Part shown: positions 3,148 to 3,807 of the stretch, in pieces
Layout of the letters: each line of letters starts with the position of its first letter
How positions within the stretch are numbered: position 1 is the stretch's first letter
Origin: Desulfomicrobium baculatum DSM 4028
GTDB lineage: Bacteria > Desulfobacterota > Desulfovibrionia > Desulfovibrionales > Desulfomicrobiaceae
Length of the DNA: 64,000 nt
Direction of reading: 5' to 3'
Assembly: GCF_000023225.1 (NCBI RefSeq)
Contig: NC_013173.1
Coordinates: 1,800,501 to 1,864,500 of the forward strand
Program-made: the position numbers and the translations under genes
Notes under the pieces: model-generated
Told to the model about the DNA's origin: nothing
What the model saw: only the letters and a program-made list of their open reading frames with translations
The model's database searches: none

Positions 3148-3285
3148 GTTCTTACTCCTGGTCTAAGTTTGCGTATGAAATTTTATAAAACCGCTATCCA
3201 TTTTTTGCTGCCAGATTAACGTGATAGAATGATAACATTACTGGCTTGCTGATCTGCTTCACTTCAACACAACTGCTGGGCCATG

Positions 3286-3302
3286 AGCATTCTCTGTGCC
3301 AA
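3286..3302 (-). promoter_or_regulatory. Sigma-54 (-24/-12) promoter of islA
   Basis: On the minus strand the sequence TTGGCACAGAGAATGCT matches the -24 element TGGCAC and a -12 element (ATGCT) with the required ten bases between GG (3299-3300) and GC (3287-3288). Transcription would start near 3275, giving a leader of about 128 bases before the islA ATG. No comparable -35/-10 pair was seen for islA. Confidence 0.65.
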
Positions 3303-3386
3303 TCCTCTTAACCTATTAAAAAGAAAGAGTATTCACGATTCACCGTGGCATTGCGTTCTTTGGGAAAAATGGAACAAAGCGAACCC

Positions 3387-3402
3387 GTCGCAAACTTGCA
3401 AC
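3387..3402. promoter_or_regulatory. Palindromic operator or enhancer site, copy 1
   Basis: GTCGCAAACTTGCAAC matches the perfect palindrome at 3439-3454 in 14 of 16 positions. The two centres are 52 bp apart, about five helical turns. It lies about 120 bp upstream of the predicted islA start point, the usual place for a sigma-54 activator site. Confidence 0.55.
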
Positions 3403-3438
3403 AAACACGAACATTTCCGACTTTTTTACACAAAAATG

Positions 3439-3454
3439 GTTGCAAATTTGCAAC
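3439..3454. promoter_or_regulatory. Perfect 16-bp palindrome, operator or enhancer site, copy 2
   Basis: GTTGCAAATTTGCAAC is a perfect 16-bp palindrome in the divergent spacer. It is about 171 bp upstream of the predicted islA start point and about 280 bp upstream of the predicted isiP start point. No matching regulator gene is in the window. Confidence 0.65.
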
Positions 3455-3582
3455 GGGACACGCAAAATACGCATCATCACGGGTCGCAAAAAAGCCGACG
3501 GCAGTGTAAGACAATAATGGACGCCGGGATTTTGTGATTTTATTCCCAAAAACGGCACCTCTGCTAAGAACACCTCTCAGTA

Positions 3583-3598
3583 GTTGCAGTTTTGCGAT
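3583..3598. promoter_or_regulatory. Degenerate third copy of the palindrome
   Basis: GTTGCAGTTTTGCGAT matches the perfect copy at 12 of 16 positions. It lies about 136 bp upstream of the predicted sigma-54 start of isiP, a position mirroring that of copy 1 relative to islA. Confidence 0.4.
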
Positions 3599-3632
3599 TT
3601 AAACTCCCTTTCTCCGCCGCGATTGTGCACCA

Positions 3633-3661
3633 TTGACTCACAAGTACTTGAATTTTAATAA
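3633..3661 (+). promoter_or_regulatory. Possible sigma-70 promoter upstream of isiP
   Basis: TTGACT (3633-3638) and TAATAA (3656-3661) are separated by 17 bp in an AT-rich stretch. This is a reasonable alternative or second promoter for isiP, but the sigma-54 match just downstream is more specific. Confidence 0.35.
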
Positions 3662-3700
3662 ATTTAAATTACAACAAGCTGTCCAACCCTCATTTTCCGA

Positions 3701-3716
3701 TGGCATGCATTCTGCT
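3701..3716 (+). promoter_or_regulatory. Sigma-54 (-24/-12) promoter of the isi transporter genes
   Basis: TGGCATGCATTCTGCT has a -24 element (TGGCAT) and a -12 element (CTGCT) with ten bases between GG and GC. The predicted start point is near 3727, about 80 bases upstream of the isiP ATG. Together with the opposite-facing islA promoter it makes a sigma-54 divergon. Confidence 0.6.
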
Positions 3717-3807
3717 CTGGGGTCATCAACACCCGTGGCCAGAGGGCGACAGCCGGAAACATTGCCTGGCAATGCTGGTCAAAACTCAACTTTTTTTGGA
3801 GGAATAC

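Follow-up and report, generated by a model that had tools for sequence, protein, structure and literature searches.

The concept that isethionate utilization is controlled by a dedicated activator is not new, as it has been predicted and in part tested in relatives of Desulfomicrobium baculatum. In Desulfovibrio vulgaris Hildenborough, the enhancer-binding protein (EBP) DVU2827 was predicted to control DVU2820 and DVU2822-DVU2825 via sigma-54 promoters, with sites predicted in five Desulfovibrionales genomes and D. baculatum being among the ten that were examined (Kazakov et al., 2015; PMC4641369). In the same study, the enzyme of this regulon was called a pyruvate formate-lyase. In D. alaskensis G20, a mutant of islR fails on isethionate and uses sulfite, and the cells make the proteins IslA, IslB and DctP specifically in the presence of isethionate (Peck et al., 2019; PMC6386719). 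The G20 protein, which we liken to the regulator described here by name and description, is predicted to regulate the isl cluster, and the text of that paper treats it without a link to sigma-54, a motif or a mechanism. Within the open full-text literature, we found DVU2827 in the first of these papers only and islR in conjunction with isethionate only in the second, and the connection between the two thus seems unwritten in this literature. A third precedent is the orp divergon of D. vulgaris, where two divergent sigma-54 promoters are served by one EBP binding to intervening palindromes, and where experiments have demonstrated that this EBP, DVU2106, synchronises both promoters (PMC3897727). 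The orp divergon contains cell-division genes and functional IHF sites, and its activator DVU2106 is expressed from its own sigma-70 promoter (PMC3897727), whereas in the region described in the following an IHF site is weakly indicated.

The corresponding region of D. baculatum DSM 4028 is located in a window of 64,000 nucleotides (NC_013173.1, positions 1,800,501 to 1,864,500), to whose numbering we refer unless stated otherwise. As in the DVU2827 regulon, an EBP gene accompanies those for the glycyl radical enzyme, the activase and the TRAP transporter, upstream sites are predicted at sigma-54 promoters, and the amidohydrolase known in D. vulgaris as DVU2820 is included. Unlike in D. vulgaris, where transporter and lyase are combined in one operon (DVU2822-DVU2825), both sides of the locus are divergent in D. 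baculatum. They are separated by a spacer of 660 bases between the genes for isethionate import and those for isethionate splitting, with promoters pointing outward, which, on the evidence described below, is the well conserved regulatory region of the isethionate-respiration divergon of this organism.

On the minus strand, the spacer is followed by islA (655-3147), encoding the 830-residue glycyl radical enzyme isethionate sulfite-lyase. Its best matches in the PDB are the IslA entries 7kq3 (1500.6 bits) and 5ymr (1498.3 bits), compared to 1227.3 bits for the HpsG entry 6lon, where we take 5ymr to be IslA and 6lon to be HpsG, the enzyme acting on DHPS. The protein retains R189, I192, Q193, W374, C468, E470, R678, V680, F682 and G805, and thus both sulfonate arginines. 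The roles of these residues in IslA have been tested by mutation (PMC8473560). The NCBIfam model NF048011, '(2S)-3-sulfopropanediol dehydratase', matches the same protein with 1545.6 bits at a cut-off of 1000, and if taken literally would turn the enzyme into HpsG and the locus into a sulfopropanediol divergon. However, this model scores far above its cut-off on IslA and on the HpsG-like protein of D. baculatum alike, so that its label cannot separate the two and automatic annotations of isethionate lyases that rely on it will be misleading. We have rejected the identity as HpsG since the protein is closer to IslA in the PDB (1500 vs 1227 bits), since F682 is kept, and since a separate HpsG-like protein (1600.7 bits to 6lon) is encoded elsewhere in the genome. 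The protein encoded opposite to the lyase also matches the isethionate-binding protein IseP, which together with the active-site residues backs the isethionate identity that the initial annotation had assigned to the locus and leaves hardly any probability for a sulfopropanediol divergon at this place.

Downstream of islA, the radical-SAM activase islB (minus strand) occupies positions 1-570 with its 5' part and extends 395 bases beyond the left edge of the window (L008:15105-16070). The gap between both genes contains a strong terminator-like hairpin on the minus strand (625-648, GCAGGGGGCCCCAAGGCCCCCTGC) followed by CTTTTT, and in the relatives that we examined, this gap likewise contains hairpins, with sequences unrelated to that of D. 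baculatum. This suggests an attenuation that sets the lyase above activase and regulator, and the hairpin may in this way allow the abundant lyase to outrun both. The plus-strand run starts with iseP (3808-4815; isiP in the initial annotation), a TRAP-type isethionate-binding protein of 335 residues whose best PDB match is the isethionate-binding DctP 8t9t (445.6 bits, with the next at 179.5). It proceeds with iseQM (4956-6857), a fused TRAP permease of 633 residues (TIGR00786, 440 bits), and ends with an amidohydrolase-family gene (6945-7781; PF04909), the probable counterpart of DVU2820, which is described in the paper on the DVU2827 regulon (PMC4641369).

The initial annotation had noted that no regulator is encoded inside the window and had proposed a search for an activator with an AAA+ GAFTGA domain next to islB. 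Such a protein is found just past the left edge, where islR constitutes the third gene of the run islA-islB-islR (minus strand, L008:13554-14942, corresponding to G000:C1:1798554-1799942), starting 558 bases left of the first base of the window. A sigma-54 activator near the D. vulgaris locus, as suggested in the same annotation, also exists and is DVU2827 (PMC4641369), in which the EBP motif reads GAFSGA, compared to GAFTGA in D. baculatum IslR. The 462 residues of IslR comprise a PAS domain, a sigma-54 interaction domain (PF00158, 223 bits), an AAA+ lid and a Fis-type HTH (PF02954), with the Walker A motif GETGVGKD. An AlphaFold model (mean pLDDT 79.6) displays the PAS domain, a long linker helix, the AAA+ domain and a terminal HTH. 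Among 35 IslR orthologues, Walker A and most columns of GAFTGA are invariant and the catalytic columns are invariant or nearly so. The genome of D. baculatum codes for a single sigma-54 protein (RpoN) and contains over 40 matches to the activator domain of IslR; IslR is the only activator candidate encoded in the isl operon. Convergent with islR and also left of the window resides a gene for an iron alcohol dehydrogenase (L008:12333-13493, plus strand) resembling the sulfoacetaldehyde reductase SarD (520.8 bits vs a cut-off of 700), which is present too in the genomes G002 and G014. We considered an extension of IslR control to this gene beyond islR, but found no palindrome there.

RNA polymerase containing sigma-54 sits at -24/-12 elements in a closed complex and requires an ATP-hydrolysing activator bound upstream. 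A direct reading of the sequence recovers the two outward-facing elements of this type that were initially proposed, each with a GG-N10-GC spacing. The element of islA (3286-3302) is located on the minus strand (TTGGCACAGAGAATGCT, 3302-3286) with an expected start at about 3275, and the element of iseP (3701-3716) on the plus strand (TGGCATGCATTCTGCT) with an expected start at about 3727. Between them, the proposed perfect 16-bp palindrome and its two variants are all found at the positions where they were described. UAS2 (3439-3454, GTTGCAAATTTGCAAC) is exact, UAS1 (3387-3402, GTCGCAAACTTGCAAC), the islA-proximal palindrome, deviates at two positions and is located 52 bases from UAS2, and the iseP-proximal UAS3 (3583-3598, GTTGCAGTTTTGCGAT) contains four mismatches. 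The spacings also agree with the earlier description, as the palindrome centres fall at about -120 and -171 relative to the expected start of islA and at about -136 relative to that of iseP. Palindromes with up to three mismatches were found twice in the window compared to an expectation of 0.2, and a search for further copies in the 3.94-Mb genome has identified a single exact copy, with sites essentially confined to the isl locus. The sole other palindrome with two mismatches outside of the spacer (1943531) precedes an M23 peptidase gene and is found without a good sigma-54 element; as the best candidate for an IslR regulon that extends beyond the isl locus of D. baculatum, it is not convincing, and such a regulon was thus rejected. 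UAS3 is weak in D. baculatum, yet it is found at the same place in all nine other isl-bearing congeners and is better formed in several of them; we have accepted it because of this preservation.

The -24/-12 elements could be chance matches in operons that in fact use sigma-70-type promoters. Taken alone, the elements are not above chance, as a search of the whole window for the sigma-54 consensus with at most one mismatch found one match while about 2.7 are expected, and the case for the promoters thus rests on their place and conservation. The place is distinctive, since ten sites on both strands of the 64 kb score at least 9, which at this density predicts about 0.08 sites in 660 bases, whereas the spacer harbours two of the ten, namely the elements of islA and iseP. 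Their conservation was analysed by aligning the spacers of ten Desulfomicrobium genomes and ranking every 12-base window in an unbiased manner. The six best non-overlapping blocks are the islA promoter, ranked first, the iseP promoter, ranked second, a box at 3534-3545, ranked third, and the three palindromes. Five of these six had been named initially from the letters alone, and the sixth had been missed. An absence of the elements from close relatives had initially been named as an outcome that would speak against the proposal; instead, each of the ten islA-bearing Desulfomicrobium genomes contains both the promoters and the palindromes, including one (G006) in which the sites are degenerate. 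No sigma-70-like promoter was found in the spacer, and we regard an origin of the elements by chance as highly improbable. Our search of the leaders for a riboswitch or another Rfam RNA found none. A candidate IHF-like core on the minus strand between UAS3 and the iseP promoter (3638-3653; ATTCAAGTACTTG, 3653-3641, one mismatch) shows column conservation that is average for the spacer and is thus a tentative, weakly indicated site.

The block that had been missed is part of a conserved near-palindrome at 3531-3550 (TTTGTGATTTTATTCCCAAA) that resembles sites of Crp/Fnr, HcpR or Rex (TTGTGA-N6-TCnCAA). Within the genus, good matches to this box are restricted to isl loci, which is why we have dismissed it as the mark of a genus-wide regulon. 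Another near-match in the D. baculatum genome (L177) provides no clue to the regulator. Perfect TTGTGA-N6-TCACAA boxes are located upstream of islA in the loci L061 and L090. The box might conceivably serve as operator for another regulator of the Rex, HcpR or Crp/Fnr type, which senses redox state or stress and gates or bends the IslR enhancer, a proposal that we make with considerable reservation. If true, isethionate respiration would be switched by the substrate and the state of the electron carriers together.

To follow the palindromes into other genera, we ran a matrix derived from 22 Desulfomicrobium sites on the regions upstream of islA. In all 15 loci outside of Desulfomicrobium that encode a close IslR, defined by a score of 580 bits or more, it detected at least two sites, amounting to 43 matches, while equal lengths of islA coding DNA contained none and 2.35 were expected from shuffled sequences. 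Loci that begin with the TRAP genes (L075, L078, L082, L083, L109, L114 and L117), of which L078 and L083 are Nitratidesulfovibrio-like with the TRAP genes heading the operon, have palindromes and -24/-12 elements upstream of iseP instead of islA, as illustrated by GTTGCAGATTTGCAAC in Nitratidesulfovibrio liaohensis (L083). The sites thus follow the promoter and not the lyase gene. Their distances are confined to narrow ranges, with 97-101 bases between the start of the -24 element and the proximal palindrome in 28 of 38 loci, 52-54 bases within the proximal palindrome pair in 25 of 32, and 117-120 bases on the iseP side in 18 of 24, where the values refer to distances between sequence matches rather than to mapped starts and where related loci are not independent. 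Several departures from these values resembled whole helical turns (78, 90 and 121; 41-43; 110, 129 and 141). Once related loci had been collapsed, however, it was the modal distance that carried the signal, and by a hand estimate the departures alone were not significant; we thus make no claim of helical phasing. Some distant loci with IslR contain weak palindromes only, and their true sites may differ. In three loci from Bacillota (L109, L114 and L117), an IslR-like EBP or a fragment of it is encoded and iseP is preceded by GTTGCA palindromes together with -24/-12 elements, and the regulator may thus have crossed phyla along with the isl genes. The isethionate loci of Mailhella (L088, L094, L096 and L112) contain sigma-54-like elements upstream of iseP and only a distant EBP (41-42%). 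No GTTGCAA palindromes were found in these four loci, which probably use another activator or operator.

The genome of D. baculatum contains a paralogous divergon for DHPS (hps; L136:7070-16000, corresponding to G000:C1:2453070-2462000). There, a run consisting of the HpsG-type DHPS lyase, an activase and a paralogous PAS/AAA+/Fis EBP (45% to IslR) faces a reductase and a TRAP transporter, and the spacer contains sigma-54-like elements in both directions (TGGCATGCCATCTGCT on the minus strand and TGGAACGCTCTTTGCT on the plus strand) together with a 16-bp palindrome (GTCTCAAAACTGAGAC). The genome G007 retains both the palindrome and the element on the side of the lyase, and G003 retains them more loosely. 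Both divergons thus share a glycyl radical enzyme, activase and EBP operon opposite to a TRAP operon with sigma-54-like elements on either side. They differ in the substrate, in the number of palindromes, with one clear copy in hps compared to three in isl, and in the half-site. The hps operator equals that of IslR in size and symmetry, but its half-site reads GTCTCA instead of GTTGCA.

The related palindrome next to a separate EBP also bears on the question of which protein binds to the sites of the isl spacer. GTTGCAA-type palindromes are in themselves not diagnostic of an EBP and, with an additional near-palindromic box in the same spacer, they could be operators of a different regulator, such as a repressor, with IslR acting elsewhere. 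Besides the resemblance to the hps divergon, this explanation is at odds with the location of the sites at a fixed distance from sigma-54 promoters, roughly 100-170 bases upstream of them, with their movement together with the promoter as the gene order changes, and with islR being the regulator gene in the operon. It thus appears very unlikely, and the three palindromes are probably bound by IslR, which is encoded beside the spacer.

We consider it highly probable that IslR, the three palindromes and the two sigma-54 promoters constitute a switch for both operons. The sequence itself reveals the elements and how well they are conserved, as well as a regulator gene whose catalytic motifs are intact. 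In the mechanism that we propose, sigma-54 RNA polymerase would wait at both outward promoters while IslR binds to the three palindromes (GTTGCAA-NN-TTGCAAC), with the pair of UAS1 and UAS2, 52 bases apart, serving islA (-120/-171) and UAS3 serving iseP (-136). A signal, probably isethionate or a derivative, would reach the PAS domain, upon which IslR would oligomerise, loop to either promoter, hydrolyse ATP and open it. One bound pool of IslR could reach both promoters by looping and thus share the sites between them, so that lyase and activase would be produced together with the transporter and both sides of the locus would switch jointly. Since islR is located within the induced operon, downstream of islA, activation would raise the amount of IslR and the switch would thus reinforce itself, while the hairpin that separates islA from islB would hold the levels of activase and regulator under that of the lyase.

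Collectively, our analysis adds the conserved footprint, its assignment to IslR, the fixed spacings, the paralogous DHPS divergon with its related operator and the extra box to what had been described in relatives. In the open full-text literature, we found no paper that states how the isethionate pathway is activated. The footprint connects the sigma-54 prediction from 2015, in which the enzyme had been misnamed, with the islR mutant from 2019 and provides the exact bases. With the isl and hps divergons in one genome, a clean pair is available for studying how related activators distinguish between their operators. The significance of such control lies in the reaction of IslA, which releases the sulfite that is turned into hydrogen sulfide by desulfovibrios of the gut and the environment.
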